Virus record (IMG/VR): IMGVR_UViG_3300004369_000667 | Span: 1-36,839 of that record | Strand: one strand, 5' to 3' | DNA from: a virus | Length of the DNA stretch: 36,839 nt | Shown: piece by piece, positions 4,108 to 20,885 of the stretch | Layout of the letters: the number at the start of each line of letters is the position of its first letter | Position numbering within the stretch: position 1 is the first letter of the stretch | Notes under the pieces: model-generated | Told to the model about the DNA's origin: nothing | Databases searched by the model: none | Seen by the model: the letters and a program-made list of their open reading frames with translations, nothing else | Program-made: the position numbers and the translations under genes

Positions 4108-4152
4108 ATTACGATATTGTTTCCCTCTTAATATTTTGATAATGTCCAGTCA

Positions 4153-4181
4153 TTGACATTATTGAATAAATCTGTTATAGT
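4153..4181 (+). promoter_or_regulatory. Sigma70-type promoter for the plus-strand island
   Basis: A perfect TTGACA (4153-4158) is separated by 17 nt from TATAGT (4176-4181), which matches five of six bases of the -10 consensus. It points to the glycosyltransferase gene starting at 4223, with a leader of about 35 nt. Spacing and sequence are near-ideal for a host housekeeping sigma factor, implying early or host-driven transcription of the island. Confidence 0.75.
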
Positions 4182-4182
4182 A

Positions 4183-4194
4183 TATTTATAAATA
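4183..4194. promoter_or_regulatory. Bidirectional overlapping late promoter box
   Basis: The 12-bp palindrome TATTTATAAATA contains TATAAATA on the minus strand (4183-4190), facing the collagen-like gene, and on the plus strand (4187-4194), facing the glycosyltransferase gene. It starts one base after the sigma70-type -10 box. One site could fire late transcription in both directions, joining fibre and glycosyltransferase expression. Confidence 0.6.
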
Positions 4195-4222
4195 AAAGTA
4201 GTTAATTAATGAAATAATTTAA

Positions 4223-6253
4223 ATGATTTCTATTGCATTCTTAGATATAATTGGTCTTCCATATGACGGTGACACTTTAAATAAAAGAGGTCTTGGAGGC
4301 AGTGAATCTGCAACCATATTGATGGCGAAAGAATTAACAAAATTAGGCTTCAAAGTAACTATTTTTAATAATTGTAATAGAGACACAAATCTTGCAAAAG
4401 AAGGAATTTACGATGGTGTAGAATATCTCGATAATAGTATTTTTGATTATAAACACGATTATAAATTTGATATTGTAATTTCATTAAGAACAATTATTCC
4501 TTTTCTAACGCCTAATCTATACAAACAATTTCAACACTATAATCCTCAAAGGTATTCTGCAATTTCAAGTAATGCAAAACATAAAATTGTTTGGATGCAC
4601 GATACGTTTGCAAACGGCGATCTTATATTAGAAGAACTTTTAGTTAGTGGACATATAAATGAAATATTTACTTTGTCTGATTTTCATTCAACATATGTAA
4701 TGAATTGTGATCATGGTAAAAGAAGAAATATGGAAGTATTAAAACACAAATTTTTTCAAACTAGAAATGGAATAGTAATTTATAAAGACGAAGTTGATGT
4801 AAGAAAGAAAGATCCTCACTTATACGTTTTCAATGCAGCTTTTACAAAAGGTATGGCACCTTTAGTTAACGATATATGGCCAAAAATAAAAGCAAAAATA
4901 CCCGAAGCAAAATTGATATGTATAGGTGGATTTTATGTTTTTCCAGGCCAAAAAATGGATGCTCAAGGAGAAGAATGGACCAAAATGTCAAATGATCCTA
5001 AAAATAAAAATTTAAGTATAGAGTTTACAGGTGTTATAAAACAATCTGAAATAGCAGATATCTTAGAAAGAGCAAGTTTTAAATTATTTCCAGGTGCTTT
5101 TCCTGAAACATTTGGTATATCATCTTTAGAAGCAATAGCATATAATACTCCTTTAATTACTACACGGTTCGGTGCTCTAGAAGAAACAGCGGTAGACCAA
5201 GCTTGTTATTTAATAGATTATGCAATAGAACCAAATTCTTTGTTTCAATTTATTTCAAAACCAAAACAGGTAGATAGATTTGTTAATACTGTATTAAAGG
5301 CTAATCATAATAGATATCTACATCAACAAAAACAATATGCTTGTAATTTAATTAAAGGCATTGTTAGTTGGGACACTGTAGCCTTACAATGGAAACAACA
5401 TTTATATAGAGTATTGGGTGAATATTTATCGGTGCATGAATATAGAAAAGTATGTCATATTAATTCTAGAGTTAGAAAAGTATTTGGTAGAAGATTCTCA
5501 AATATAGAAGAAAATTATTTACCTAGAAAGAAAGAGCAAAAAATAGTTATTATAACGCCAACATATAACTCTGCTAAATATATTGGCAAATGTATCGAAT
5601 CGGTTGCCACACAAGATTATGATAATTATGAAATGATTGTAATTGATGACGCTTCGTCAGATGATACTCATAACATTGCCGAAAAATGGAAAAGTGATAA
5701 AATAAAAGTAATTCGTAATGAAGAAAATAAAGGAGCTGTTAGAAATCAAATAGAGTCTATAAGAAAATATTGTAAAGAAGATGACATTGTTATGTTTTTA
5801 GATGGTGACGATTCTTTTGTAAATGATAATCAGATACTTCAATATTATAATAATCTTTATGACGGAACTACCGAATTTACTTATGGGTCTTGTTTTTCAA
5901 TGGTAGATAAAATACCTTTAGTAGCACAAAACTATCCAAATGAAATAAAACAAAAAAGAGAATATAGAAAATACAGATTTAATTGGAACATGCCGTATAC
6001 ACACTTAAGAACATTTAAAGCAGAGCTTTTAAATGGTATTGATGACAGTAATTTTCAAGATGAAAATAAAAATTGGTATAAAGCTGGCGGAGACGGTTCA
6101 ATATTTTACTCTCTTATAGAGAAAGCTAATCCAGACAAAATCAAGGTAGTATCAGATATAGTATATAATTATAATGATATAAATCCTTTGAATGATTATA
6201 AAATTAACGGAGACGAACAAACAAAAAATGCAAATAGGATAATTAACCGATGA
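4223..6253 (+). CDS. Two-domain glycosyltransferase (GT4-like + GT2)
   Basis: A 676-residue fusion. Residues 1 to about 410 look like a GT-B fold family 4 enzyme: a glycine-rich GLGGSES near residue 23 and a C-terminal donor-site pattern around 293-315 (FPETFGISSLEA then GALEETA). Residues from about 439 are a GT-A fold family 2 domain: KIVIITPTYNSAKYIGKCIE, IDDASSDDTHNI, and a metal-binding FLDGDDSF near 526. No membrane segment is seen, so it is probably cytoplasmic. Two GT modules on one chain suggest addition of two successive sugars, but donors and acceptor cannot be read. It is the first gene of the plus-strand island and overlaps the next by 4 nt (ATGA), implying translational coupling. 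Confidence 0.88.
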   Translation: MISIAFLDIIGLPYDGDTLNKRGLGGSESATILMAKELTKLGFKVTIFNNCNRDTNLAKEGIYDGVEYLDNSIFDYKHDYKFDIVISLRTIIPFLTPNLYKQFQHYNPQRYSAISSNAKHKIVWMHDTFANGDLILEELLVSGHINEIFTLSDFHSTYVMNCDHGKRRNMEVLKHKFFQTRNGIVIYKDEVDVRKKDPHLYVFNAAFTKGMAPLVNDIWPKIKAKIPEAKLICIGGFYVFPGQKMDAQGEEWTKMSNDPKNKNLSIEFTGVIKQSEIADILERASFKLFPGAFPETFGISSLEAIAYNTPLITTRFGALEETAVDQACYLIDYAIEPNSLFQFISKPKQVDRFVNTVLKANHNRYLHQQKQYACNLIKGIVSWDTVALQWKQHLYRVLGEYLSVHEYRKVCHINSRVRKVFGRRFSNIEENYLPRKKEQKIVIITPTYNSAKYIGKCIESVATQDYDNYEMIVIDDASSDDTHNIAEKWKSDKIKVIRNEENKGAVRNQIESIRKYCKEDDIVMFLDGDDSFVNDNQILQYYNNLYDGTTEFTYGSCFSMVDKIPLVAQNYPNEIKQKREYRKYRFNWNMPYTHLRTFKAELLNGIDDSNFQDENKNWYKAGGDGSIFYSLIEKANPDKIKVVSDIVYNYNDINPLNDYKINGDEQTKNANRIINR

Positions 6254-8081: not shown

Positions 8082-8948
8082 ATGACTAAGTTAAATATAA
8101 TAGTAACCAGTAAACCAGGCGATGGTTTAATGCATTATAGCTTTGAACAAGCACAATATCTAAATGATTTAGGTATCAATGCAAAACTTATAATCATACC
8201 TCACTACAGATTTACCAAAGAAACTTATATAGAGGCCTTAACAGAAAAGTATATACATATGAAAAATGTATACTTTGATTATGAAGAAGCTGATGTAAAT
8301 TTAATTATGGGTAGAAGTATGATAACTCTAGCATATAAGAGTATCAAAGATTATGATAAAGATACACAATTAACTTTACGTTTGTTATTTAAGAAACCTC
8401 TTATATCAGTATATTCAGAAAACCACCCAAAAGAATATCCTTTAGCACTAGAATTTTTTAAACCAGAAAAAGTAATTGACTTATGCGACCATGAGGTATA
8501 TGTTAATGGTATAGGTAGACAATTTGAAAAGATTATTAATTACAGTGTATATAAACCTATAGTTAAAGATGTTAAGTTTAAGTATTTATTTTTAGGTACA
8601 AACGAAAGTTATTATACTGAACTAAAAAAACATATTCACAAGTACCAAAATCATGGTATCTTGGCATACAAAGATAAGTACATAGACCATAATTTGAATC
8701 ATGTATTTGTACCTGTAAAGAATTTATTAGGTATGTTTGATACTTACGTTTATACTAAACACACATTTGATCCGGCACCAAGATTAATGCAGGAGTGTCG
8801 TTTTTTTGGAATGAATTTTATATATGCAAGAGATAAAAATATTAAAGACGGAGGACCTGTTTATTATAAAAGGCCGGCAAACTGTTTAACGGACCCGATA
8901 AATAAAAGTAATATAAATACACTTATAGAAGCTATAAATCAATTATAA
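8082..8948 (+). CDS. Putative GT-B type glycosyltransferase
   Basis: A 288-residue soluble protein. The start (LNIIVTSKPGDGLMHYSFEQ then AQYLNDLGINAKLIII) resembles the N-terminal Rossmann domain of GT-B glycosyltransferases. Near the C-terminus, FDPAPRLMQECRFFGMNF occupies the place where these enzymes bind donor nucleotide-sugar. At under 300 residues it is shorter than most GT-B enzymes (350-400), and the classical EX7E motif is not clear. It starts the second plus-strand run. The call is moderate; another nucleotide-binding transferase is possible. Confidence 0.6.
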   Translation: MTKLNIIVTSKPGDGLMHYSFEQAQYLNDLGINAKLIIIPHYRFTKETYIEALTEKYIHMKNVYFDYEEADVNLIMGRSMITLAYKSIKDYDKDTQLTLRLLFKKPLISVYSENHPKEYPLALEFFKPEKVIDLCDHEVYVNGIGRQFEKIINYSVYKPIVKDVKFKYLFLGTNESYYTELKKHIHKYQNHGILAYKDKYIDHNLNHVFVPVKNLLGMFDTYVYTKHTFDPAPRLMQECRFFGMNFIYARDKNIKDGGPVYYKRPANCLTDPINKSNINTLIEAINQL

Positions 8949-8975: not shown

Positions 8976-9035
8976 ATGAAAATAGAAACTCACTTTTCAG
9001 CTGAAGGTAAAAAAATAATGGAAGAAATAAAATAA
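8976..9035 (+). CDS. Possible 19-residue leader ORF before the aminotransferase
   Basis: An ATG preceded by AAAGAAGATAAA opens MKIETHFSAEGKKIMEEIK and stops in TAATG, sharing one base with the aminotransferase start. The tight overlap suggests translational coupling. It could be a leader peptide, a remnant of a longer protein or chance. Confidence 0.3.
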   Translation: MKIETHFSAEGKKIMEEIK

Positions 9036-10087
9036 TGGACTCATGGTTTAAAGAATATGCACTAAACAAAGATGACTATAACAAGCTCTTTGACGAAAGC
9101 ATGCAAGAAAAACAAGAACAAGATATAGAGTTTTTCGAAAATACAATAACAAACACAATAGGAAGAAAGTATGCCGTTGCTTGTCAAAGCGCTACAGACG
9201 CCTTAATGTTTTCTTTAATAACGTTAGGCATAAAACCAGGCGATGAAGTATTAACAACCAACTTCTCCTGGATAGCAACAGCTTCTTGTATATCCATGGT
9301 AGGCGCAACACCAGTATTTTGCGATATAGATAAAGAAACGTATCATATGTCATTAGATAGCATAAAGAAAATGTATTCAGATAAAGTAAAAGCAATTGTT
9401 TATCCTCATTTATTTGGTAATATGTCCGACACCACAAAAATACTAGAATTTTGTAAAGAAAAAAATATATTTTTTGTTGAAGACGCAGCTCAGTCCATAG
9501 GGTCTAGTTTTGGTGGAGTAAAAGCAGGTACACTAGGAGATTTAAGCGCTATAAGTTTTAATGCAAATAAAACTATTAGTGGTATTGCTGGTGGCGGAGC
9601 TGTAGTAACAAATAATAAAGAATATGCTGATACTATAGTCAAATTAAGAAAACATGGTAACAACGAAATGTTAGGCTACAATTCTAAAATGTTATTCTTT
9701 AATGCTAAGTTTATTGACTATAGATTGAAAAAATTAAATGAATATATTGAAAAGAAACAAGCAATAGCTAAAAAGTATGACGAACAACTAAAAGATGAAG
9801 TTATTATACAATCAACTTCAAATGGCGTGAATCACACGTATCATAAATATATCATAAGATTTAAAAATAAAGAAACAAGAAATAGAGTAAAAGAAAGGCT
9901 AAACGCAGATGTACACTATGAAAAACCTATATCTGAATTGCCTATGTATAAGAATATACCATATAGAAGTGATGACTGTATTAATTGCAAACATACAGGT
10001 AACACAATTTTAACATTACCTATTGACCCTTATTTAACAGATAAAGAAATAAATGATGTATGTAATATAATATTATCCTCACTATGA
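9035..10087 (+). CDS. DegT/DnrJ/EryC1-type PLP-dependent sugar aminotransferase
   Basis: A 350-residue fold-type I aminotransferase. Visible landmarks: ACQSATDALMFSLITLGIKP (49-68), GDEVLTTNFSWIATASCI (69-86), the cofactor-contacting FVEDAAQS with Asp150, and the expected Schiff-base Lys179 in SFNANKTISGIAGGGAV; KLRKHG and GYNSKM follow. Members transfer an amino group to a nucleotide-linked keto-sugar. It is slightly shorter than the usual 370-400 residues. In the cluster it could act on a keto-sugar supplied by the host, since no 4,6-dehydratase is seen. It overlaps the next gene by 4 nt (ATGA). Confidence 0.9.
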   Translation: MDSWFKEYALNKDDYNKLFDESMQEKQEQDIEFFENTITNTIGRKYAVACQSATDALMFSLITLGIKPGDEVLTTNFSWIATASCISMVGATPVFCDIDKETYHMSLDSIKKMYSDKVKAIVYPHLFGNMSDTTKILEFCKEKNIFFVEDAAQSIGSSFGGVKAGTLGDLSAISFNANKTISGIAGGGAVVTNNKEYADTIVKLRKHGNNEMLGYNSKMLFFNAKFIDYRLKKLNEYIEKKQAIAKKYDEQLKDEVIIQSTSNGVNHTYHKYIIRFKNKETRNRVKERLNADVHYEKPISELPMYKNIPYRSDDCINCKHTGNTILTLPIDPYLTDKEINDVCNIILSSL

Positions 10088-10884
10088 TAGAAATAATAAC
10101 AAATTCAAGTTTAGATCAAATTAGTTATATTGACAGTAATGGAAATCCTGTTACTATAATCGATCAAAAGCTTATTGAGACTTGTAAAATGATGAAAAGG
10201 CTATTAGGTGTAAATGATATATTTGACGAAAGTTTAATTAACGAATACAATGAACCAGTTTATGAATACATAGTTGAAAAAACTTATACATCTCCAGAAT
10301 ATGATTATGGACCATTAAACTTTAAAGAAGGACCTAAACAAAAGATGAAGATTGCATTTAATAAATTATTTTATAAAAAAATTAAACTTTCTTCAACAAA
10401 AGAGATATTAATTAATTACATTAAAAATTTAAACATTTTAAATTCAAATTCTGAAATCACAATATTAGGTGGAGAGTATGCCAGCATTTTAATACCTGCA
10501 TTTCAGTTTGTTAAAAGAATAACGCTGATTGATATTGATAAGAATGTTATCACTGTTGCAAAAAACAGATTATTTAATCAATATAAAAATGTTGATTGTA
10601 TTAATAGTGACATATTTGATAAAGAAAGATATGATAGAATAAGGGATGCTAACTTAATTATTAATACTTGTTGCGAACATATGAAACCAATGAAAGAATT
10701 ATATTTAGATATTTCTAACGATAGGATTTCAAGAGGTAAGATTCCAAGAATTCCAAAAGGACATTTTGCGTTTCAATCTAATAAAGAATTTAAAGAACAA
10801 TTACCAGAAGGAGCTAATGTATTAATAGAAGATACAGTATCAGATGAACGTGGAACAAGATTTATGTTAATAGGTAAATTGTGA
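10084..10884 (+). CDS. Methyltransferase-like Rossmann protein, copy A
   Basis: A 266-residue protein. Residues 120-200 look like a class I SAM-binding fold (ITILGGEYASILIPAF, then LIDIDKNVITVAKNRLF), but motif I reads GGEYA where the paralogue at 16068 has GCWYG. The last glycine is replaced, so SAM binding may be altered. Residues 1-105 form an N-terminal region absent from the paralogue. The C-terminal half is almost identical at DNA level to the paralogue except for a 15-codon gap after AFQSN (residue 233). Substrate unknown; sugar or lipid methylation is inferred from context. Confidence 0.65.
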   Translation: MIEIITNSSLDQISYIDSNGNPVTIIDQKLIETCKMMKRLLGVNDIFDESLINEYNEPVYEYIVEKTYTSPEYDYGPLNFKEGPKQKMKIAFNKLFYKKIKLSSTKEILINYIKNLNILNSNSEITILGGEYASILIPAFQFVKRITLIDIDKNVITVAKNRLFNQYKNVDCINSDIFDKERYDRIRDANLIINTCCEHMKPMKELYLDISNDRISRGKIPRIPKGHFAFQSNKEFKEQLPEGANVLIEDTVSDERGTRFMLIGKL

Positions 10885-10905: not shown

Positions 10906-11601
10906 ATGTTTAATATGAAAACAAAAGAAAACATAGATAATGCGCTTAATATTCTTTTTAATAGAAAGAAGTTAAACATAGATATAAGTTTTAGATGTGC
11001 ATTAGAATGTATGAGATGTGCAAGAACTAGAATCAAAAGCCTAGGCAAAAAAGTACCAGGTGAAGATATGTCCTTAAAAGACTTTGAAAAGGTTGCAAAA
11101 CATTTTGAACAAATTAATTTTTGTGGTCAATATTCAGATCCTGTTCATCATCCTAATTTTATAGAAATATTAAAAATGTGTCATCAATATGATGTAAAAG
11201 CAATAGTGCATAATGCTTCTTCTACAAAATCTAAAGATTGGTATATAAAAGCTTTTAAAGCTAACGTTAATGTAAAATGGATATTTGGTATTGATGGTTT
11301 ACCTGAAAAAAGTTGTTTGTATAGAGTAAATCAGGACGGCGTGAAATTATTTAATATAATGTTAGAATCTAAAAAATATTTAAATCAAATGCCAGTATGG
11401 CAAATAATAGCTTTCAGTTTTAATGAAAATGACATAGATAAATGTAAAAAAATAGCTGATGATAATGAAATTCTTTTAAAAATAATACAATCATCCAGGT
11501 GGATAGATGGCCATGACCCATTAGCGCCTACAAGCGAGTTATACAAAATGAAGCGGCTTCCGGATGTAAAGCATTTGGTAGAAGATTCTCAAATAGAGTA
11601 A
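10906..11601 (+). CDS. Radical SAM enzyme core, copy A (no SPASM domain in the chain)
   Basis: A 231-residue protein with the canonical CX3CX2C iron-sulfur motif at Cys31, Cys35 and Cys38 (FRCALECMRC), preceded by KLNIDIS. A distinctive block, NFCGQYSDPVHHPNFIEIL, follows, then VHNASS, WIFGIDGLP and RVNQDG, all shared with the paralogue at 19251. The chain ends soon after the barrel region (QSSRW). The Cys-rich auxiliary domain expected at the C-terminus is on the next gene, 20 nt downstream in another frame. The reaction is unknown; sugar epimerisation, dehydration or peptide modification are all possible for the superfamily. Confidence 0.85.
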   Translation: MFNMKTKENIDNALNILFNRKKLNIDISFRCALECMRCARTRIKSLGKKVPGEDMSLKDFEKVAKHFEQINFCGQYSDPVHHPNFIEILKMCHQYDVKAIVHNASSTKSKDWYIKAFKANVNVKWIFGIDGLPEKSCLYRVNQDGVKLFNIMLESKKYLNQMPVWQIIAFSFNENDIDKCKKIADDNEILLKIIQSSRWIDGHDPLAPTSELYKMKRLPDVKHLVEDSQIE

Positions 11602-11621
11602 CAATAGATGAAGAAAAAAAC

Positions 11622-11981
11622 ATGACAAAAAAAGAAGAATTAGAACCACAATGTCTAAAAAATGACTCACGAGAAGAAGTGATGCAAGCAGCCATAGATA
11701 ATAGAGGTCATTTAATACCGTGTTGTTATTGTGATACTGTTGAAAATGGAAAAGACATTAATTACCAAAAACTTTTAAAAGTAAGTAAAATCAGCGATTA
11801 TGAAAATATTGAGGAAATATACCTAAATAAAGAATGGACAGAATTTGTAGAAAATTTGAAAAATAATATAGGATTTCACGCTTGCTATGTAACTTGTCGT
11901 AAAAATAAAGACCCTAATAACATTACAAAAAAAGAACGTACATATTCTAAAGGTGAACTGCTTTACCGGAAAGATGTTTAA
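11622..11981 (+). CDS. SPASM/twitch-like iron-sulfur domain protein, copy A
   Basis: A 119-residue protein with Cys11, then RGHLIPCCYC (Cys34, Cys35, Cys37) and a CX3C pair at Cys88/Cys92 (ACYVTC). The CX17GX4C spacing at the front resembles the first half of SPASM/twitch domains, which bind auxiliary [4Fe-4S] clusters in radical SAM enzymes. It follows the radical SAM core gene at 10906 and probably works as its separate subunit. The same arrangement recurs at 19251/19961. Confidence 0.7.
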   Translation: MTKKEELEPQCLKNDSREEVMQAAIDNRGHLIPCCYCDTVENGKDINYQKLLKVSKISDYENIEEIYLNKEWTEFVENLKNNIGFHACYVTCRKNKDPNNITKKERTYSKGELLYRKDV

Positions 11982-11996
11982 ATGAAAATTAAAAAA

Positions 11997-12015
11997 TTAG
12001 TAAAGAAAGAAATAT
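11997..12015 (+). repeat. 19-nt repeat before a radical SAM gene, copy 2
   Basis: An exact second copy of the element at 10885-10903. Its last two bases (AT) belong to the ATG at 12014. At the matching place in copy 1 the sequence reads ATA, and the start lies a few bases further on. Confidence 0.6.
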
Positions 12016-12874
12016 GAAATTTGATTTAACATATGCACAAAAAAATTACTTAGCAATAGATTTTTTTCTATCAATGTCTTGTAATAAAGATTGTCACTAT
12101 TGTACAAGTTATACTTTGGAAATGAGAAACTTAACAGTAGATTTAATTTTTTTAAGAGAAACACTAGAAGCTTTAAAAAAATATAAAGTTAGAATATGTT
12201 TACTTGGTGGAGAGCCAGGCTTAATTAAGAACTTGCGTGAAGTAATATCAATGATAAAAGAATATCCTAATTTTATCTGTCAAGTTTTATCCAACTCTTT
12301 TGTAAGAAAAAGATATCCTGAAATACTAGAAGACCCTGAAATATTATATGCAGAACACTTAATATTAGATTTTTATCCAAACGAAATAAAGAAATTAGGT
12401 AACTATGATTTTTTACAATCTAATGATTTGAATAACTATAACGTAGTGCTTAAAACACCTAATTACTTTAAATATATGGCAAATTATCCAGAAGAAATAG
12501 AAAAATTAAATCACAAAAATACTATGTGGAAAGATTTTAACGGCAGAACACCAGTTAAAGATGATGTAGAAAAAGCACATTATAACCTTTCCGAAACAGT
12601 TAAACAGGCGGCCGAAATAGATCGTAAGATGTGCGCCGCTTTTCCTATGGTGCCTGTTATAAATTTTGAACAAAAACACATAGTACATTGTAGTAAAAAA
12701 TTTGCTAACAATAGTGAATTGTCTAGGACGTTTCCTATGACAAAAGAAAATATTGATAAGATGATGAATTTTCAATTATTTAAATATGAAAAGTACTGCG
12801 TAACATGTAAAGAATGGGTACAACCAAAAGGTCATTTTCCTATTGAGAAGTATGGCAATATATTAAATGAGTAA
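12014..12874 (+). CDS. Radical SAM enzyme, different subtype
   Basis: A 286-residue protein with CX3CX2C at Cys23, Cys27 and Cys30 (SCNKDCHYC) and the SAM-contacting GGEP motif at 65-68 (LLGGEPGL). The C-terminal third is Cys-bearing (KMCAAFP, IVHCSKK, KYCVTCKEW), suggesting a built-in twitch-like auxiliary cluster. It lacks the SDPVHHP block of the other two radical SAM proteins and is not a close copy of them. Substrate unknown. It is preceded by the exact 19-nt repeat found before the gene at 10906. Confidence 0.82.
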   Translation: MKFDLTYAQKNYLAIDFFLSMSCNKDCHYCTSYTLEMRNLTVDLIFLRETLEALKKYKVRICLLGGEPGLIKNLREVISMIKEYPNFICQVLSNSFVRKRYPEILEDPEILYAEHLILDFYPNEIKKLGNYDFLQSNDLNNYNVVLKTPNYFKYMANYPEEIEKLNHKNTMWKDFNGRTPVKDDVEKAHYNLSETVKQAAEIDRKMCAAFPMVPVINFEQKHIVHCSKKFANNSELSRTFPMTKENIDKMMNFQLFKYEKYCVTCKEWVQPKGHFPIEKYGNILNE

Positions 12875-12903
12875 AACTATTTTTTTTAATAAAAGGGTAT
12901 CAA

Positions 12904-13767
12904 ATGTATCAAAAAATAACATGGTTCAATGATTCCAATACGCTCCCTTTATCTTGGCATAGAGCCAAACAACAATCATTAAAAATGAAAAAAATATTAT
13001 TAGTTAGTGGTTGTAGTTGGAGTGATTTAGAATTTAACTCTATTTTTCATTCAGATTTAGATTCCTCTTGGCCCAAATGGCCTGAATTACTAGCAGATAA
13101 ACTTAATATGAATTGTATTAATTTAAGTAAATGTGGGGCAGGACAAGAATATATCTATTACAGTTTAATAGAAAAAATAATGTCAATGAATAAAGATGAT
13201 ATAGGATTAATTATTCCAGGGTGGTCTAGGGCACCAAGGAGAGATCATCAAACTGTTGTTGATGAAAAACTTACATGGAAAAATGCTAGTTGGGATAATA
13301 GAGGAGATATGTGTTATTTTATTGAAAAAACTTTAAGATATTATTATATGTTTCAAATTTTTTGTGAGAGATTTAATTTACCATATAAACAAGTACAAAT
13401 GATAGAATTATTTGAAGCACCTGTTTTTAATGAAGAAATTCAGATGTATATAAAAAACTCTGAATTTCATTCACAAAAAATTTTTGAAGATGATAGTAGT
13501 AAGAGTAAAGGAATAGTTAGTAAAGAAATTGCTTTAAAGTCTATGATAAATAGTTTATATTTTAATTTAATAAATGAAAAAAACTTTATTGGTTGGCCAG
13601 TAGAGACTAACAAATGGTTTAGAAAATTGGATAAAGAGACTAAAGTAGGCGGTTACGCCATATATAATAAATTAGACCAAGATAAGCATTTTATATCTAA
13701 GTTAGACAGACACCCAAATGCTGAAGGTCAGAAACTAATTGCTGAAACAATTTATAAAAATCTATAA
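12904..13767 (+). CDS. SGNH/GDSL-like hydrolase, tandem copy 1
   Basis: A 287-residue protein with block-I-like LLVSGCSWSD (candidate nucleophile Ser38), a KCGAGQEYI block near 77-85, and DRHPNAEGQKLIAET at the C-terminus (candidate Asp268/His270). SGNH enzymes hydrolyse or transfer acyl groups, often O-acetyls on sugars. The Asp-to-His spacing is one residue shorter than the usual DxxH, so activity is not certain. The start at 12904 is chosen because AAAAGGG lies 6 nt upstream. However, an ATG at 12985 (MKKILLVSGC) matches the start of the tandem paralogue exactly, so the first 27 residues may be an added leader. It shares one base with the next gene (TAATG). Confidence 0.7.
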   Translation: MYQKITWFNDSNTLPLSWHRAKQQSLKMKKILLVSGCSWSDLEFNSIFHSDLDSSWPKWPELLADKLNMNCINLSKCGAGQEYIYYSLIEKIMSMNKDDIGLIIPGWSRAPRRDHQTVVDEKLTWKNASWDNRGDMCYFIEKTLRYYYMFQIFCERFNLPYKQVQMIELFEAPVFNEEIQMYIKNSEFHSQKIFEDDSSKSKGIVSKEIALKSMINSLYFNLINEKNFIGWPVETNKWFRKLDKETKVGGYAIYNKLDQDKHFISKLDRHPNAEGQKLIAETIYKNL

Positions 13768-14486
13768 TGAAAAAAATATTATTAGTTAGTGGATGTAGTT
13801 ATGCTGACAAAAATTTTAAATCTACATTTTATCCTAATTTAGATACAAGTTGGGATAAGTGGCCTGAAATACTAGCTAAAAAATTAAATATGGATTGTGT
13901 TAATTTAGGATATTGTGGTTCAGGTAATGATTATGTTTATTCTTCTTTAATAGATTACATTGTTCAAAATAATAACAATTTAGAGTTAGTTATATCTGGA
14001 TGGACAAAAGCTGCAAGACGTAGTTATACGAAAGTGGATTACTTTGGCAATGAAGTTAATTTTAATTTACGTTTGGACACTCACGGTGATATGGATTACT
14101 TTATAAAAAGATCATTAAGATATTATTATTCATTTCAACAGGTTTGTAAAAGTTTGAATATACCTTTTAAACAAGTACATATATTAAACCCTACGAGAGC
14201 TGCAATTTGGGATGAAAAAAGAAAAAATGGATATGAATATACTACTAAAAAAGAAGCTCTAGCAATAGAGGCTCAAGCAATCAAAATGTTTATATCAAAT
14301 TCTTATTTCGATAAAATAGATGAAAAACATTTTATTGGTTGGCCAGTAGAACCTAAATTAGGTGGGTTTTCTATGGAGGATAAATTAGACAAAGACAAAC
14401 ATTTTATATCTGAACAAGATACACACCCAAATGCTGAAGGTCACAAACTAATAGCTGAAACAATTTATGAAAATCTTAATTTATGA
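13767..14486 (+). CDS. SGNH/GDSL-like hydrolase, tandem copy 2
   Basis: A 239-residue paralogue of the preceding gene. It shares MKKILLVSGCS (Ser11), WPE(I/L)LA, the GxGxxY(I/V)Y block, SGWTKAARR versus PGWSRAPRR, IGWPVE and DTHPNAEGHKLIAET (Asp218/His220). Copy 1 carries an extra internal segment around residues 175-190. Likely role is sugar or lipid O-acyl hydrolysis or transfer in the island, inferred from family and context. It overlaps the carbamoyltransferase start by 4 nt (ATGA). Confidence 0.7.
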   Translation: MKKILLVSGCSYADKNFKSTFYPNLDTSWDKWPEILAKKLNMDCVNLGYCGSGNDYVYSSLIDYIVQNNNNLELVISGWTKAARRSYTKVDYFGNEVNFNLRLDTHGDMDYFIKRSLRYYYSFQQVCKSLNIPFKQVHILNPTRAAIWDEKRKNGYEYTTKKEALAIEAQAIKMFISNSYFDKIDEKHFIGWPVEPKLGGFSMEDKLDKDKHFISEQDTHPNAEGHKLIAETIYENLNL

Positions 14487-16042
14487 AAATCTTTAGTGTT
14501 GCAATAAACTTACACGATCATAATACCTACGATGGTATGTATCACAATCAAAGAGAACGACACACAAGATTTAAACATAATCTACCTTATCACGCTGAAG
14601 CATACGCTCATCAATCTGATATATTAAATCCTGGAGACTATACTTTGAACGATCAATTCATAAAAGAATACTTAAAAAAACCAGAAGATGGTGTTTTAGC
14701 ATTTACATATACTTTTGGTGGTATAAGAAAATCAAAAGAACAATTATTTAATAATATATTTCAAGGTCATAATGAGATTTTAGAGTATGAACCTAAAAAA
14801 TTATGGGACAGACATTATAAAGACGGCATTTATTATATTGATCACCATCAATCACACGCCACATACGCATTTTTAAATTCGGGCTATAAACAAAGTGATA
14901 TACTTGCAATAGATGGTATTGGTTCAAGATATAGATGTTTATTCTTTGATAAGGAAGGAATCATAACTGATTTATCAAATAAATTACCTATTGGGTGGTT
15001 ATGGAATCACATGTCTAATCTTACAGGTTTTGGAACATTAGGTGCAAGTAAACTTATGGGTAAAGTTGGTTATGGAAAACATAGTGATTACTATTATGAT
15101 GTATTAAACACTATATTAGAAGGACCTATTTTAGAAAGAAAGTATCCAGAATTTGAACAAATACGAATTGGACAATATGGTATAGACGATTTAGCATATA
15201 CACTACAAGAAATTACTATGGAAAAAATTAAAGAATATGTTTATCCGTTAAAGAGTTGCGATAACTTATGTATAGCAGGTGGCGTTGCTTACAATGGATA
15301 TATGAATGAAGAATTTACCAAACATTATAAAAATGTGTTTGTACCACCTGCTGTAGGCGATGAAGGCCAAGCATTAGGTACTTATCAACACGCTGACTAT
15401 GTATTGAATAACAATATACATATAACAGAAACATTTGCTGGTAAAGAATATAAGTATAATAAAGAAGAAAACATCAATTTGATGGCCTCTATATATGTTA
15501 TGTATAATGGTAAATTTGAAAAAGTGAATTATAAAGAAGTTGCACAGGCTATAGCAAAAGGTTGCATAGTTGGTTGGTTTCAAGGTAAATCTGAAAGTGG
15601 CAATCGTGCATTAGGCAATCGTAGTATATTAGCAGACCCACGTAATCCTAATATCAAAGATATTATTAATCAAACAATTAAAAAGAGAGAAGATTTTAGG
15701 CCATTTGCACCAGCCGTATTAGAAGAGCATTATAAAGAATACTTTGATACAAGACTACCTAGTCCATATATGAGTAGAATATGTAAAGTTAAATCTGATA
15801 AAGTACCAGGCATTACACACGTTGATGGTACAGCTAGAATACAAACAGTTAATAAAGAATTTAACGAAAAGTTTTATAATGTTATAAATGAGTTTTATAA
15901 GATAACAGGAATTCCAATGCTATTAAATACAAGTTTTAATTGTCAGGAACCTATTGTAGAAACACCAGAGGACGCAATTAGAACTTTTAATAAAACCCGT
16001 TTAGAGTTATTAGTTATTAACGATTGTATAATAAGAAAATAA
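14483..16042 (+). CDS. NodU/CmcH-family O-carbamoyltransferase
   Basis: A 519-residue protein with both halves of the family. The N-terminal domain has DHHQSHATYA (metal-binding His residues at 121-125), LAIDGIGSR, LMGKVGYGK and IAGGVAYNG. The C-terminal domain has GWFQGKSESGNRALGNRSIL (364-383), ADPRNP, FRPFAPAVL, HVDGTARIQTV and LLNTSFNCQEP. Such enzymes use carbamoyl phosphate and ATP to put a carbamoyl group on a sugar or antibiotic hydroxyl. Length is near the family norm (550-600). It sits among sugar-modifying genes, so a sugar substrate is the natural inference. This is one of the firmest calls in the island. Confidence 0.93.
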   Translation: MKIFSVAINLHDHNTYDGMYHNQRERHTRFKHNLPYHAEAYAHQSDILNPGDYTLNDQFIKEYLKKPEDGVLAFTYTFGGIRKSKEQLFNNIFQGHNEILEYEPKKLWDRHYKDGIYYIDHHQSHATYAFLNSGYKQSDILAIDGIGSRYRCLFFDKEGIITDLSNKLPIGWLWNHMSNLTGFGTLGASKLMGKVGYGKHSDYYYDVLNTILEGPILERKYPEFEQIRIGQYGIDDLAYTLQEITMEKIKEYVYPLKSCDNLCIAGGVAYNGYMNEEFTKHYKNVFVPPAVGDEGQALGTYQHADYVLNNNIHITETFAGKEYKYNKEENINLMASIYVMYNGKFEKVNYKEVAQAIAKGCIVGWFQGKSESGNRALGNRSILADPRNPNIKDIINQTIKKREDFRPFAPAVLEEHYKEYFDTRLPSPYMSRICKVKSDKVPGITHVDGTARIQTVNKEFNEKFYNVINEFYKITGIPMLLNTSFNCQEPIVETPEDAIRTFNKTRLELLVINDCIIRK

Positions 16043-16055
16043 ATATAAGTATAAC

Positions 16056-16063
16056 AAAGGAGA
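16056..16063 (+). promoter_or_regulatory. Strong ribosome binding site
   Basis: AAAGGAGA lies 4 nt before the ATG at 16068. It is one of the few strong Shine-Dalgarno sequences in the island, and it follows a 25-nt gap rather than an overlap, so the gene starts a new translational unit. Confidence 0.7.
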
Positions 16064-16067
16064 AGAA

Positions 16068-16697
16068 ATGATAGACATAGATTACCAATTATTTAAAAAT
16101 GTGATAACGGAAGGCCGAAACAATCCTGATTTATTAGATTCATACAGTGAAAATCAATTCAAAGCAAAAGAACTTTTAGTTAAACATATAGAAAGTTTAA
16201 ACATATTAAATGAAAATTCAGAAGTTGTAATATTAGGATGTTGGTATGGTAGTTTATTAATACCTGCATTTAAAAATGTTAAAAGAATTACAGCCATAGA
16301 TGCTAATGAAAATGTAATTAGTATAGCTAAAAACAGATTATTTAATCACTATAAAAATGTAGATTTTGTTATTAGTGATGTATTTGATAGAATTAGATAT
16401 GATAGAATAAGGGATGCTAACTTAATTATTAATCATTCGTGTGAACATATGAAAAATATGAAAGAATTATATTTAAATATGTATAACGATAGGATTTCAA
16501 GAGGTAAGATTCCAAGAATTCCAAAAGGACATTTTGCGTTTCAATCTAATAATATGTTTGATGTACATAAACATATTAATTGTGTCAATAATGTAAATGA
16601 GTTTAAAGAACAATTACCAGAAGGAGCTAATGTATTAATAGAAGATTCAGTATCAGATGAACGTGGAACAAGATTTATGTTAATAGGTCAATTGTGA
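16068..16697 (+). CDS. Methyltransferase-like Rossmann protein, copy B
   Basis: A 209-residue protein with class I SAM methyltransferase landmarks: VVILGCWYGSLLIPAF (glycines 57 and 61), RITAIDANENVISIAKNRLF, and HSCEHM near 123-128. The C-terminal half is almost identical in DNA to the gene at 10084, apart from an extra MFDVHKHINCVNNV segment (about 163-176) that the other copy lacks. With an intact glycine motif it is the better candidate for an active methyltransferase. It overlaps the next gene by 4 nt, where the start codon is GTG (GTGA). Confidence 0.7.
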   Translation: MIDIDYQLFKNVITEGRNNPDLLDSYSENQFKAKELLVKHIESLNILNENSEVVILGCWYGSLLIPAFKNVKRITAIDANENVISIAKNRLFNHYKNVDFVISDVFDRIRYDRIRDANLIINHSCEHMKNMKELYLNMYNDRISRGKIPRIPKGHFAFQSNNMFDVHKHINCVNNVNEFKEQLPEGANVLIEDSVSDERGTRFMLIGQL

Positions 16698-17578
16698 AAA
16701 GAGTAATTTATAGTTTGTTCATAGATATACCTAAAGAAGAATTAGATTTGTTTGATACTCATATAAAAAAACCAGACGCCATACCTACAAACTATAATAC
16801 TAAAAATGAGTTTCAAAAAAACTATAAACAGTTAGTAGAGAATAAAGTCAACTATGCTAAATCAATAGGTATAGATTTTGTAATGGTAGAAAATGATACG
16901 AAGTGTGGTTCTTTAAATACTAGTTATATTGATTATTATAAATGGATGAGAGAATTTTATCCAGAAATCACAAGTTATAACATAGTTAATTTTTTTAAAA
17001 TACATTTATTATATGAGTTTAGTAAAGAGTATGATGAGGTATTATATCTAGACTTTGATGTAGTTACCAATACTACTGAAAATTTTTTTGAAGTGTGGGA
17101 CTTATCTAAAGGTGTATGTGTTTTGAATAATAATGAAAGAGTGTCTCCTATTCAAAAAATAACTGATAAAACACAAACCATAAGAAGTCCTAATGCAAAA
17201 TACTATAATGCTCAGGCTATGTTAATAGAAAAAGGTCTAAGTCCTCAAAATGATGTTATAAATACAGGTATAATAGGCATTAATAAGAAACATTTAGAAC
17301 AATTAGAATATTTTGAAGATTTCAAAGAAACAATTAAATTAATGAAAAGTCTTATAGGAGAATCAGATATATTTCCTAAAAAAATTGTTGACTTCTTTGG
17401 TTACGACAATGAAACAATATTCGCTGTCAAACTAAAAGAAAAAAAAGTACCGGTACAATGGTTAGATCAACAATGGCATTATTTTTTTGATTCACATCTG
17501 TTTATTCCATCAACAGCTAAATTTATACATGCTATTAATAAAAGATTTGATTTAATTTGGAGAAAAATTGATGCTTAA
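16694..17578 (+). CDS. GT-A type glycosyltransferase (GT8-like)
   Basis: A 294-residue protein with a DxD motif at Asp120-Asp122 in EVLYLDFDVVTNTTENFF, the metal and nucleotide-sugar site of GT-A enzymes. Further on are INTGIIGINKKH and NETIFA, typical of the acceptor half of family 8-like enzymes. No membrane segment. The start codon is GTG, inside the preceding stop; no upstream ATG fits better. The C-terminus overlaps the next gene by 8 nt. Donor and acceptor unknown. Confidence 0.78.
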   Translation: MKRVIYSLFIDIPKEELDLFDTHIKKPDAIPTNYNTKNEFQKNYKQLVENKVNYAKSIGIDFVMVENDTKCGSLNTSYIDYYKWMREFYPEITSYNIVNFFKIHLLYEFSKEYDEVLYLDFDVVTNTTENFFEVWDLSKGVCVLNNNERVSPIQKITDKTQTIRSPNAKYYNAQAMLIEKGLSPQNDVINTGIIGINKKHLEQLEYFEDFKETIKLMKSLIGESDIFPKKIVDFFGYDNETIFAVKLKEKKVPVQWLDQQWHYFFDSHLFIPSTAKFIHAINKRFDLIWRKIDA

Positions 17579-18362
17579 AATATGTACTGTATATTATAAA
17601 GGTATTTACACACCAGATTATGTTGGTAACTTTTATAAAGCTTTAAGAAAGAATAGTACTATACCTTTTATATCAGTATGTATAAGTGATGACCCTAATG
17701 TTGAAGCTGACATTGTACTACCATATAATCATCATAGTGATATTAAAAAACACTGGCATAAATTAAAATTTTTTAGTCCTTTATTTGGTGGCCAACAACC
17801 AGGTGACGATATAATAATAATGGATATAGATCAAGTTATTGTAGGTAACGTAGATGATCTTATAGGTTTTCCTGTAGGAGATAATGAATTAGTATCTTAT
17901 GGTGTTTGGTGGAATAATGATACTGACAAAATTAAAGATCCTGAAAAGTTACGTGATCATAATATTCTACCGTTAAACGGAGGTTTTTACAAGTTTAAAT
18001 CAGGCCAATTAAAGCATGTATGGGATGATTTTGTATCAAATCCTGAATATTGGCAATTGCACTATTACAATACAGGTGTAGTACATTATAAATATTACGG
18101 AGAACAAAATTATGTTGACTGGAAAATATTTGAAAAAGAAAGTAAGTTAACTTTAACGCCACCAGAGTGGTTAGGTAAATACACAGAAAATAAAGAAGAT
18201 ATGATACAATTGAACATGTTATATTCAAAAACATTTAATACAGATTATATGATATTAGATGATGTGCATGAATACATCAAAGTTGTACATTTTAATGGTG
18301 TTGGAAAAACAATACACAATAGTAATGCAAAATTTATAGAGGAGAATTGGAATGTTACCTGA
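17571..18362 (+). CDS. GT-A type glycosyltransferase
   Basis: A 263-residue protein with DIIIMDIDQVIVGNVDDL, giving a DxD motif at Asp85-Asp87, and LPLNGGFYKFKSG further on, as expected of GT-A enzymes. I start it at the ATG at 17571; a TTG one codon earlier is also possible. It overlaps both neighbours by 8-11 nt and so is probably coupled to them. It differs in sequence from the transferase just upstream, which argues for a different donor or acceptor rather than simple duplication. Confidence 0.77.
   Translation: MLKICTVYYKGIYTPDYVGNFYKALRKNSTIPFISVCISDDPNVEADIVLPYNHHSDIKKHWHKLKFFSPLFGGQQPGDDIIIMDIDQVIVGNVDDLIGFPVGDNELVSYGVWWNNDTDKIKDPEKLRDHNILPLNGGFYKFKSGQLKHVWDDFVSNPEYWQLHYYNTGVVHYKYYGEQNYVDWKIFEKESKLTLTPPEWLGKYTENKEDMIQLNMLYSKTFNTDYMILDDVHEYIKVVHFNGVGKTIHNSNAKFIEENWNVT
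18339..18344 (+). promoter_or_regulatory. Ribosome binding site inside the preceding gene
   Basis: GAGGAG lies 7 nt before the ATG at 18352, within the last codons of the glycosyltransferase gene. It supports the chosen start of the nitroreductase-like gene. Confidence 0.6.
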
Positions 18363-19254
18363 AGACGATTTCAGATCTAGATCTGAAGAAAAAACTAAAA
18401 AAATTATGGGCATGTTTTACGATTGGGACAAAGAAAGAGAAGTTTTAAATAATATACAAAAATGCCAAAGAAATTGGGATTATTCAAAATTTAATATTGA
18501 AAATATGACTCATAAAGAAATGGTAGATGAGTTATTATGGGTTGCACAAAATACGCCTACTAAACAACACGAAGGTTACTATGATATTTACTGGACAGCA
18601 AATAGAAATTTAATACAAGAAATGTCCAGATACACTTGGGGCAATACGCATAGGAGAGAACCACCTTCAACTTGGAGAAATTCACAAGCAAACGCTAGTG
18701 TATATATTTTATACATAGCAAAAGAACCTAATACACAAATGAACGCAAACGCTGATGGCACGTTAAAAGATAACAAACACCACGAAAGATGGTTAAACGC
18801 ATACGTGAGTATTGGTATTTCATTGGGGTTAACAGCAAGAGCTGCTGCTAAAATGGGATTTGCAACTGGTTTTAATAAAAATCATAATGATTTAAATGGT
18901 GATGATTTTTGGGAAAATAAACTAGGCATATTAAATGAAGTCAAAGAAGGTACAAAAAGAGTTACGTATGGTTTGGGAATAGGATATCCACAAGAAAATA
19001 AAGAGCGTTGGGAATCAGACGAAACTGAATTGATGATTGGTGCTGCTAATGGTAGTAAAATTACCTTAATCGGACAAGAAACTCATCCTAGAACAGGAAA
19101 GAAAATGAGAAAGGCCGAGATTATTGATATTAGAGGCAAAGAAAATCAAAAGATTAAAGATTTATATGGCAATGAACACAGTATACCAGAAAATTCTTCA
19201 ACAAAAATAAATTCTTTTAGAAGCCGTGGTATTAATATTATTGAAATAAAATGA
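18352..19254 (+). CDS. Nitroreductase-like flavoprotein
   Basis: A 300-residue protein with the general pattern of FMN-dependent nitroreductases: a QRNWD start of the flavin-binding region (40-43), ELLWVAQNTPTKQHEGYYDI (60-79, cf. the family xxAPSxxNxQP segment), VYILYIA (117-123), and YVSIGISLGLTARAAAKMGF (151-170), the usual helix at the dimer/flavin site. The C-terminal third (ANGSKITLIGQETHPRTGKK) is less typical. In this family members reduce nitro groups or oxidise substrates with FMN; here a redox step in sugar tailoring or reductant supply to the radical SAM enzymes is only a guess. It ends in an ATGA overlap with a radical SAM gene. Confidence 0.65.
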   Translation: MLPEDDFRSRSEEKTKKIMGMFYDWDKEREVLNNIQKCQRNWDYSKFNIENMTHKEMVDELLWVAQNTPTKQHEGYYDIYWTANRNLIQEMSRYTWGNTHRREPPSTWRNSQANASVYILYIAKEPNTQMNANADGTLKDNKHHERWLNAYVSIGISLGLTARAAAKMGFATGFNKNHNDLNGDDFWENKLGILNEVKEGTKRVTYGLGIGYPQENKERWESDETELMIGAANGSKITLIGQETHPRTGKKMRKAEIIDIRGKENQKIKDLYGNEHSIPENSSTKINSFRSRGINIIEIK

Positions 19255-19964
19255 TAGCTGATGAAAAGAAAGTACATGATGAAAAGACAGATCTGGAAAG
19301 AGGTGGTGATTTTTTTAATAGAAAAAAAGGTCTAAACATAGACATCACACATAGATGTGCTTTAGAATGTCCTAGATGCCAAAGACAGACAGCATTTAGA
19401 AATAAAGGTGATACCGTTTACGGCATTGATGTATCATTAGAAGATATAAAAAAGTTAGCCAAACATTTTAAATACTTTGATTTCTGCGGACAGTTATCAG
19501 ACCCCGTACATCACCCACAATTTATAGAAATATTAGAATATTTAAATTCTGAAAATGTAGGTGTAAGTGTGCATAATGCTTCATCTCAAAAACCTTTATC
19601 GTGGTATATTAGAGCATTTAAGGCATATCCAAATGCAAGGTGGATATTTGGTATTGATGGTCTACCAAATGAAAGTCATATCTATAGAGTTAATCAGGAT
19701 GGAGAAAAATTATTCAATGTAATGTTAGAGTCTAAAAAGTATTTAAAACAAAAACCTCATTGGCAATATATTATTTTTAAATACAACCAAGACCATGTTG
19801 ACCAAGCAAAACAAATAGTTGAAGATAATGATTTAGTTTTTATTCTATTACAATCATCAAGGTGGAATGCTACAGATGACCCATTGACACCTACAAATGA
19901 ATACAAGTTATCATATAAAGGTGCATCATATAAAGGTTCATCAAATAAAGGAGATAAAAAATGA
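19251..19964 (+). CDS. Radical SAM enzyme core, copy B (no SPASM domain in the chain)
   Basis: A 237-residue paralogue of the protein at 10906. CX3CX2C is at Cys36, Cys40 and Cys43 (HRCALECPRC), followed by FDFCGQLSDPVHHPQFIEIL, VHNASS, WIFGIDGLP, RVNQDGEKLFNVMLESKKYL and QSSRW. The C-terminus is a Ser/Lys/Gly-rich tail (SYKGASYKGSSNKGDKK) that looks like a linker. The gene ends in ATGA with the SPASM-like gene at 19961. The conserved SDPVHHP block in both copies is probably a substrate or subunit contact. Confidence 0.86.
   Translation: MIADEKKVHDEKTDLERGGDFFNRKKGLNIDITHRCALECPRCQRQTAFRNKGDTVYGIDVSLEDIKKLAKHFKYFDFCGQLSDPVHHPQFIEILEYLNSENVGVSVHNASSQKPLSWYIRAFKAYPNARWIFGIDGLPNESHIYRVNQDGEKLFNVMLESKKYLKQKPHWQYIIFKYNQDHVDQAKQIVEDNDLVFILLQSSRWNATDDPLTPTNEYKLSYKGASYKGSSNKGDKK
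19947..19954 (+). promoter_or_regulatory. Ribosome binding site for the split SPASM gene
   Basis: AAAGGAGA lies 6 nt before the ATG at 19961, inside the coding end of the radical SAM gene. A dedicated strong site shows that the SPASM-like domain is made by separate initiation, so the split is not simply a sequencing error or broken gene. A run AAAAAA just before the overlap could also allow some -1 slippage. Confidence 0.7.
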
Positions 19965-20296
19965 AGTTTCGTCCAAAATGTTTAACTAATGAAATACAAA
20001 CAGCCTTAACTAATAGAGGTCATCTTATACCTTGTTGTTATTGTGATGAAAAATGGGCACTTAATACACCTCAATTAAAAAGATTAACAGATGTAAGTAA
20101 AGTAAGCGAAGTAGAAAATATAGAAGAAATACTTTTTTCAAAACCTTGGATGAAATTTGAAGAAGATTTAAGAACTGAAAACTGGCCAGAAATACCAAAA
20201 ATATGTATTCATCATTGCCAGGAAAGAGGTGACGATAATATTAAAACAGAAACTTATTTTTATAAAGGCAAAAAAGTAGCTGAAAATAAAAGATGA
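19961..20296 (+). CDS. SPASM/twitch-like iron-sulfur domain protein, copy B
   Basis: A 111-residue paralogue of the gene at 11622: Cys7, RGHLIPCCYC (Cys25, Cys26, Cys28), VENIEEI, and CX3C at Cys82/Cys86 (ICIHHC). The opening CX12GX4C fits the SPASM/twitch consensus CX9-15GX4C. It has no radical SAM core of its own. Translation is coupled to the core gene by a 4-nt overlap and a strong internal ribosome site. It is probably the auxiliary cluster subunit of a two-chain radical SAM enzyme. Confidence 0.73.
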   Translation: MKFRPKCLTNEIQTALTNRGHLIPCCYCDEKWALNTPQLKRLTDVSKVSEVENIEEILFSKPWMKFEEDLRTENWPEIPKICIHHCQERGDDNIKTETYFYKGKKVAENKR

Positions 20297-20303
20297 AAAA
20301 GAT

Positions 20304-20885
20304 ATGAGAATAATTTGTTGTAGATTTGGTAACAAGTTTACTCAATGGCACGTTGATAACTTAAAATATATGATAGATTTTCACTCTGGAATATCTTATG
20401 ATAGTTTTGAAGTTATTGAAAATGATATTTACGGTAACTGGTACAATAAGCTTCAAATGTATGATAAATTCCGAGATGGGGAAAACCTATACTTTGATTT
20501 GGATGTTGTTATATGGAAAGAACTACCAAACCTATTCAAAAAAAACTTTACTCTATTAAATGACTTATGGTGGAGAGATATAGCTCACACACCATTAAAC
20601 TCAACTATTGTTTCGTGGACAGGTGATGTTTCTCATATATGGAATACATTTAAAAAAGATGAAAAAGTTTACCTAGAAAAATATAACAAAGGTAGTGATG
20701 AGTTTTATTATAAGGAGATAAAATACGATTGTTATGATAAAGTTTGTCCCTCTATCAAAAACCATATATATAAAATACCACCAAAAGAATTTAGTATTTG
20801 TACTCTAGGACAGATGAACCATCTTTTAGAAAAAGGTTGGAACGGCTGGTGGTCAGATTATATTATGCCTCACTATAAAGATTAA
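20304..20885 (+). CDS. Short GT-A type glycosyltransferase-like protein
   Basis: A 193-residue protein with GENLYFDLDVVIWKELPNL, giving a DxD motif at Asp65-Asp67, and NSTIVSWTGD and GWNGWWSDYIMPHY later. It resembles the DxD region of the transferase at 17571 but is short for a full GT-A enzyme, so it may be a minimal form. It is the last gene of the plus-strand island, and its last 23 nt overlap the end of the convergent minus-strand gene at 20863. Confidence 0.68.
   Translation: MRIICCRFGNKFTQWHVDNLKYMIDFHSGISYDSFEVIENDIYGNWYNKLQMYDKFRDGENLYFDLDVVIWKELPNLFKKNFTLLNDLWWRDIAHTPLNSTIVSWTGDVSHIWNTFKKDEKVYLEKYNKGSDEFYYKEIKYDCYDKVCPSIKNHIYKIPPKEFSICTLGQMNHLLEKGWNGWWSDYIMPHYKD

Follow-up and report, generated by a model that had tools for sequence, protein, structure and literature searches.

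The viral record IMGVR_UViG_3300004369_000667 of IMG/VR (positions 1-36,839; this 36.8-kb stretch of DNA is termed the window) carries two pairs of open reading frames (ORFs), A and B. Each pair consists of a radical S-adenosylmethionine (SAM) core and a short Cys-rich protein encoded by a separate ORF. The ORFs, motifs and junctions are given below; invariance refers to the 54-row core alignment (A1) or to the small-chain family.

10906-11601, + strand: core A, predicted radical SAM barrel subunit of 231 amino acids (aa) (ORF; CX3CX2C; Pfam Radical_SAM, E = 0.012; PHROG 21308 radical SAM, E = 1.3e-12)
10996-11019, + strand: CX3CX2C cluster motif of core A, CALECMRC (sequence; invariant in A1)
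11119-11154, + strand: FCGQYSDPVHHP block of core A (G, S, D and P invariant in A1)
11622-11981, + strand: small A, putative stand-alone twitch-like auxiliary-cluster subunit of 119 aa (ORF; five family-invariant Cys; SPASM sub-threshold, E = 0.02)
11652-11726, + strand: CX17GX4CC putative ligand segment of small A (C11, C34, C35; invariant columns)
11883-11897, + strand: CX3C putative ligand segment of small A (C88, C92; invariant columns)
19251-19964, + strand: core B, predicted radical SAM barrel subunit of 237 aa (ORF; Pfam Radical_SAM, E = 3.4e-4)
19356-19379, + strand: CX3CX2C cluster motif of core B, CALECPRC (sequence; A1)
19482-19517, + strand: FCGQLSDPVHHP block of core B (sequence; A1)
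19950-19953, + strand: GGAG, 7 nucleotides (nt) before the small B ATG, ribosome-binding site (sequence)
19961-19964, + strand: ATGA, where the core B stop overlaps the small B start (probable translational coupling)
19961-20296, + strand: small B, putative stand-alone twitch-like subunit of 111 aa (ORF; Cys alignment; AlphaFold2 model)
19979-20038, + strand: CX12GX4CC putative ligand segment of small B (C7, C25, C26; invariant columns)
20204-20218, + strand: CX3C putative ligand segment of small B (C82, C86; invariant columns)

These four ORFs bear out the first-pass annotation of this DNA, which had described two paralogous radical SAM cores with separate Cys-rich proteins. Cores A and B are 52% identical over 230 positions and the small chains are 40% identical over 108 positions. 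The frame of the small ORF is offset from the core frame by 2 bases (mod 3) in both pairs, thus the reported common split and frame offset are confirmed, as is the strong ribosome site at the overlap in copy B. In pair A there is a 20-nt gap between the core stop and the small ATG, and in pair B the two ORFs share the ATGA.

Both cores display the CX3CX2C motif of the radical SAM superfamily, once per chain (C31/C35/C38 in core A, C36/C40/C43 in core B). Pfam matches of the window copies are weak, with Radical_SAM bit scores of 16.3 and 21.3 against a gathering score of 29.5; among the 54 family cores, 25 match at E = 0.01, the best at 9.8e-12. A partial TIM barrel is also predicted, from a model of the relative at locus L172 and its PDB matches (Z 15-18) rather than from the window copies. 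The FCGQYSDPVHHP block of core A may occupy the position of the GGE-type SAM-binding motif.

The Cys pattern of small A is C11-X17-G-X4-C34-C35-Y-C37 and C88-X3-C92, and that of small B is C7-X12-G-X4-C25-C26-Y-C28 and C82-X3-C86. The motifs CX12-17GX4C, CCYC and CX3C, which had been pointed out earlier, are therefore present in both copies; five of the Cys are invariant family-wide, however the third Cys of CCYC is variable, and this part of the motif does not hold as a family character. The Pfam SPASM domain is matched weakly by small A and small B (E = 0.02 and 0.04), and by 36 of the 54 small-family proteins, with a best E-value of 1.3e-6. Neither PHROGs nor NCBIfam has a family to which the small chain could be convincingly assigned.

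The split is general. When viral contigs were scanned with core B as query, 126 relatives were obtained, and a broader scan gave at least 537; from these a first set of 106 core/small pairs and a larger set of 186 fetched loci (designated by L numbers) with 250 core ORFs were analyzed. The first set has 97 pairs with the core first, nine with the small gene first and none fused. In the larger set a separate small ORF adjoins 222 of the 250 cores. The remaining cores are distant or fused relatives, lie at contig ends, or have an intervening gene. The high-scoring lone cores are either at contig ends or in L116, L118, L132 and L133, where a gene of 516-521 aa stands between core and small; in L116 this gene is an N_Twi_rSAM. 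The small ORF mostly starts within the end of the core ORF, with an overlap of 4 to about 30 nt, and the small-frame offsets across pairs are +1 or +2, never 0.

Different and often overlapping frames, one in-family single-chain form (L172), and a core B 3′ end that reads AAA AAA TGA with GGAG upstream could suggest a sequencing error or a programmed frameshift by which one chain is made from both frames; this is highly improbable, because the split recurs in hundreds of independent contigs and in the isolate genome of phage Mosig, offsets are both +1 and +2, slippery heptamers in frame near the core stop are not enriched (found in 8 of 68 pairs; expectation 7.3), and the reversed order or an intervening gene rules out the frameshift reading. 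Programmed frameshifting was tested and rejected on the heptamer counts, and the single-base error that might have split both window frames is excluded, since the split is family-wide.

Cellular genomes seldom contain a split pair. The pair was found in two of 200 genomes of one family; in a second set of 195 genomes the only split-type match was in the starting genome, along with one distant match. L089:4965-5914 is a split pair on a 174-kb contig of a Hyphomicrobiales metagenome-assembled genome, and its neighbours are genes for a glycine cleavage T protein, a short-chain dehydrogenase and TauD. As this pair lies among chromosomal-type genes, the family is not exclusively viral.

Fused homologues, whose search had been recommended in the first-pass annotation, were found. 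L172:3983-4987 is a 335-aa in-family single chain in which the core half scores 330 bits and the small half 124 bits, and it also carries the FCGQLSDPVHHP block. L093, L095 and L094 contain distant single-chain relatives that are outside of the split clade and have the core first and then the small part. For the Cys register and a PDB profile search only, an alignment (A6) was made in which rows are extended past the core stop by a four-base step. Among 44 full-length rows, split and fused, C248, C249, C302 and C306 are present in 44/44 and C222 in 43/44.

Core and small distances are correlated in a mirror-tree comparison of 75 non-redundant pairs (r = 0.77; shuffled maximum 0.20). At loci with two pairs, the difference between the two cores is mirrored by that between their own small chains in 14 of 15 cases; r is 0.78 in the window, the weakest positive is 0.28, and L077 gives 0.01. 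As judged from these sequence distances, the core and small families have a common evolutionary history.

A maximum-likelihood tree of 73 cores places the split forms in one 62-row clade (support 100/100) with L172 nested inside. The sister clade is made up of single-chain forms, with one separate fission. Core A falls together with L101, and core B with L003/L004. The window copies are thus in different subclades, each nearer to genes of other phages than to the other copy, and are old paralogues; the tree places the fission before the duplication. At L095 a distant-clade split pair (3758-4384 and 4356-4724) stands directly before a single-chain relative (4627-5646), and from its sequence this arrangement reads as an independent fission beside a fused form.

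An AlphaFold2 model of L172, for which the input alignment was restricted to natural window and locus rows, has a predicted local distance difference test score (pLDDT) of 87.7 and a predicted template modelling score (pTM) of 0.86. When compared with the PDB, both domains align with SuiB (Z 18.3; 3.8 Å over 263 residues). Further matches are DesII (Z 17.9), SkfB (17.7), MoaA (17.6), BlsE (17.4) and anSME (17.2), and BtrN aligns with Z 15.6 and 3.3 Å over 217 residues. If the fusion reports the geometry of the split pairs, the small half would be placed where the known twitch and SPASM extensions sit. Predictions with neither an interface nor cluster-like Cys geometry had been named earlier as grounds for discarding a two-chain enzyme; the arrangement predicted from L172 is instead cluster-domain-like.

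Small B modelled alone (pLDDT 93.5) shows a beta-hairpin followed by helices. Its Cys residues C7, C25/C26, C82 and C86 flank the beta-hairpin and follow helix 2′, as in the truncated SPASM fold of a twitch domain, with an alignment to BtrN that is weak in Z. A second structural aligner matched the small-B model solely to BtrN, at twitch residues 163-249. A PDB search with the small-chain profile (A3) gave nothing credible, and a profile of the full-length rows matched BtrN at E = 2.4e-5, second to tetraether synthase. The Cys spacing of BtrN, which we take to be CX17C and then CX2C, is consistent with that profile alignment.

SPASM domains have seven Cys and two clusters, and twitch domains are truncated and have one cluster (PMC6231123; PMC9012708). 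The SPASM motif is CX9-15GX4C-gap-CX2CX5CX3C-gap-C (PMC6231123). The small chains have CX12-17GX4C and CX3C and no CX2CX5CX3C, thus the seven-Cys motif is absent. The five invariant Cys, the BtrN-like spacing and the missing CX2CX5CX3C point to a twitch rather than a full SPASM domain, and the earlier SPASM label is replaced accordingly. The small chain is predicted to be a stand-alone twitch domain with one auxiliary cluster. Both window pairs, like the pairs throughout the clade, lack an auxiliary extension at the C-terminal end of the core chain; such an extension is confined to relatives, among them L172, L093 and L095.

Each pair very probably represents one radical SAM enzyme in two chains, a barrel core and a detached twitch domain. 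The two-chain architecture, the Cys register, the co-inheritance and the predicted fold come directly from the computations above. A two-chain enzyme conserved through duplication, as first suggested from the window, is supported by the number of cores with an adjoining small ORF, the lack of a slippery signal, the common history, the fusions and the confident fold model.

Cluster content, complex formation, substrate and reaction are proposed as follows. The small-chain residues C11, C34, C35, C88 and C92 (copy A numbering) would bind one auxiliary cluster, and the small chain would dock on the barrel at the site where single-chain enzymes have their C-terminal extension. Translation may be coupled through the overlap of start and stop codons, such that both chains are made together. 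A single-chain ancestor may have split once at the base of the clade, and the split form would then have been duplicated and spread in marine phages; this direction is suggested because the sister clade is single-chain. In the reaction SAM would be cleaved and the 5′-deoxyadenosyl radical would abstract a hydrogen from a substrate that resembles a sugar or cyclitol; the second electron would pass to the auxiliary cluster, as has been proposed for BtrN. The resulting ketone could supply a DegT aminotransferase of the same gene cassette, and methyl, carbamoyl and glycosyl transfer would then build a host-surface or virion glycan.

Several points weigh against this reading. The interface evidence comes from the natural fusion L172, on one metagenomic contig, and not from a co-fold of the window pair itself. 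An in-frame Met-Lys-Lys start persists at the joint of L172, where the second half begins, and the fusion may be recent or erroneous. The small-B model alone gave nothing in Foldseek at E below 1, and its Z-scores to BtrN are low, 2.9 and 2.6. In addition, three loci (two arrangements) contain an extra small gene that lacks a matching core.

The same extra genes, the small size of the protein, its variable third CCYC Cys, the weak Pfam matches of the window copies and a fusion of the small chain with a glycosyltransferase-like domain in L079 would also agree with an independent Fe/S or zinc protein, i.e. an electron donor, chaperone or substrate that is not an auxiliary-cluster domain. This is unlikely, given that SPASM is matched across much of the small family, that the Cys register is identical to that of the C-terminal domain of single-chain relatives, that order and spacing are the same in fused L172, L093 and L095, and that the fold model fits single-chain twitch/SPASM enzymes across both domains.

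The genes around the two pairs form a cassette. Homologues of the window cassette genes were tallied in 64 pair loci:

9035-10087, + strand: DegT/DnrJ aminotransferase (Pfam, 9.6e-80; homologue in 39/64 pair loci)
12014-12874, + strand: single-chain radical SAM, the third in the cassette, C207-X18-C226...C262-X2-C265 (Pfam Radical_SAM, 4.2e-7; homologue in 35/64)
14483-16042, + strand: NodU/CmcH-type carbamoyltransferase (Pfam, 5.8e-67; PHROG 1601; homologue in 29/64)
16694-17578, + strand: GT8 glycosyltransferase (Pfam, 2.2e-7)
18352-19254, + strand: nitroreductase-like gene, overlaps the core B start by 4 nt (Pfam, E = 0.072; Mosig homologue, 0.0047)
20304-20885, + strand: probable glycosyltransferase with a DxD-like motif, directly after small B (homologue fused to the small chain in L079)

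The gene at 8082, GT-B-like from a reading of its sequence, has a homologue in 36/64 pair loci and the SGNH hydrolase in 24/64. The Cys spacing of the single-chain radical SAM at 12014-12874 resembles that of the BtrN twitch.

Two methyltransferase genes (10084-10884 and 16068-16697) have a common block of 161 aa with 77% protein identity, and the DNA is 77% identical over 540 bp. The SGNH/GDSL genes at 12904-13767 and 13767-14486 are tandem paralogues (52%). These duplicates suggest that the whole cassette grows by duplication.

Extra small twitch genes are found at L148:5044-5499, L153:5044-5499 and L127:6555-7010, next to a carbamoyltransferase gene. The ORF at L079:4599-5501 joins a small twitch chain to a glycosyltransferase-like domain, of which window 20304-20885 is a homologue. 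N_Twi_rSAM (NF033640) is fused to a NodU-type carbamoyltransferase in ORFs of about 955-972 aa at L116:3846-6710, L132:2645-5524 and L133:3982-6897; the assignment is by domain match in L116 and by length and BLAST in L132 and L133.

The pelagimyophage host-recognition cluster contains glycosyltransferases and exchangeable radical SAM cassettes (PMC7029224), and a T4-like ocean virus contig has 12 radical SAM genes (PMC5332604). BtrN oxidises a cyclitol alcohol, with its twitch domain as the likely electron acceptor (PMC9012708). The cassette partners, the L079 fusion and the L116 fusion point to sugar-type chemistry, and a sugar-type substrate in surface-glycan synthesis is our best guess. 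The nitroreductase-like gene at 18352-19254, which also adjoins pairs in L034, L169 and L174, is possibly a dedicated flavin electron donor or reductase for the radical SAM enzyme, because flavin mononucleotide (FMN) with reduced nicotinamide adenine dinucleotide phosphate (NADPH) is able to reduce such enzymes (PMC10470005).

The sugar guess is weakened by its dependence on neighbour genes only and by single-chain relatives of the same fold that modify peptides too. Numerous SPASM/twitch enzymes are peptide-directed (SuiB, SkfB, EpeE, PqqE), SuiB and SkfB are among the top structural matches, and the cassette is flanked by tail genes. The substrate of the two-chain enzymes might thus be a ribosomal peptide or a structural protein of the phage, which we regard as a real but clearly lesser possibility. 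The window cores are too short for an added recognition domain of the type used for ribosomally synthesized and post-translationally modified peptides, the conserved partners are the DegT aminotransferase, NodU-type carbamoyltransferase, methyltransferases and glycosyltransferases, and the sugar and cyclitol enzymes BtrN, DesII and BlsE are also among the matches.

A more speculative proposal, to which we attach little weight, is that the auxiliary-cluster chain is exchangeable. A core might work with different small chains, or a small chain with several cores, which would change the reaction or the electron path; marine phages would then have combinatorial two-chain enzymes with which new carbamoylated amino sugars are made on infected cells.

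What auxiliary clusters do in radical SAM enzymes continues to be debated (PMC10470005; PMC9012708), in part because the domain is not removable from a single chain without damage to the barrel. Natural separation lets the auxiliary domain be omitted, mutated, reconstituted in another cluster state or swapped with that of a paralogue, and this large viral family comes with single-chain relatives for comparison. It also suggests that marine phages have dedicated oxygen-sensitive radical chemistry alongside glycan-type genes, and gives meaning to genes whose present annotation is hypothetical protein or molybdenum cofactor enzyme.

The pairs constitute a natural two-chain radical SAM/twitch family that is widespread in marine phages and is unnamed in Pfam, PHROGs and NCBIfam as searched. 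The open-access literature that was searched (subscription papers were outside the search) holds no description of a stand-alone SPASM or twitch subunit. In the known SPASM/twitch members the auxiliary domain extends the barrel chain at its C terminus (PMC10470005; PMC6231123). Here it is separate, and the seven-Cys SPASM motif is lacking.

N_Twi_rSAM (NF033640) is likewise a radical SAM protein with the twitch in a non-canonical place, and is found in the same phage cassettes (L116). Unlike the pairs, it is a single chain with an N-terminal twitch domain, and none of the four window proteins matches NF033640 at E up to 1. The radical SAM modules of Campylobacter phage CP220 are distantly related (29% identity) and likewise accompany transferase genes in a phage cassette (PMC2853527), however they are single-chain and belong to another cassette and another host.

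Pelagibacter (SAR11) phage Mosig EXVC030M is the nearest isolate relative found for the window. Its Mosig_00084/00085 are an orthologous split pair, with 79% (core B) and 88% (small B) identity, in a similar neighbourhood of nitroreductase-like, carbamoyltransferase, methyltransferase, epimerase and VrlC genes. The record annotates the two as 'putative molybdenum cofactor biosynthesis enzyme' and 'hypothetical protein' and leaves the split unremarked.

The predicted two-domain arrangement superposes on SuiB, SkfB, MoaA, anSME, DesII and BlsE with Z 17-18. With BtrN (PDB 4M7T) the pairs have in common a predicted partial barrel and one-cluster twitch domain, and the Cys spacing of BtrN, CX17C...CX2C, is close to the CX17-22C...CX3C found here. 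BtrN consists of a single chain (about 250 aa) and the pairs of two genes, with 11-15% identity in structural alignments. The small chain also has an extra Cys (CC), unlike BtrN.

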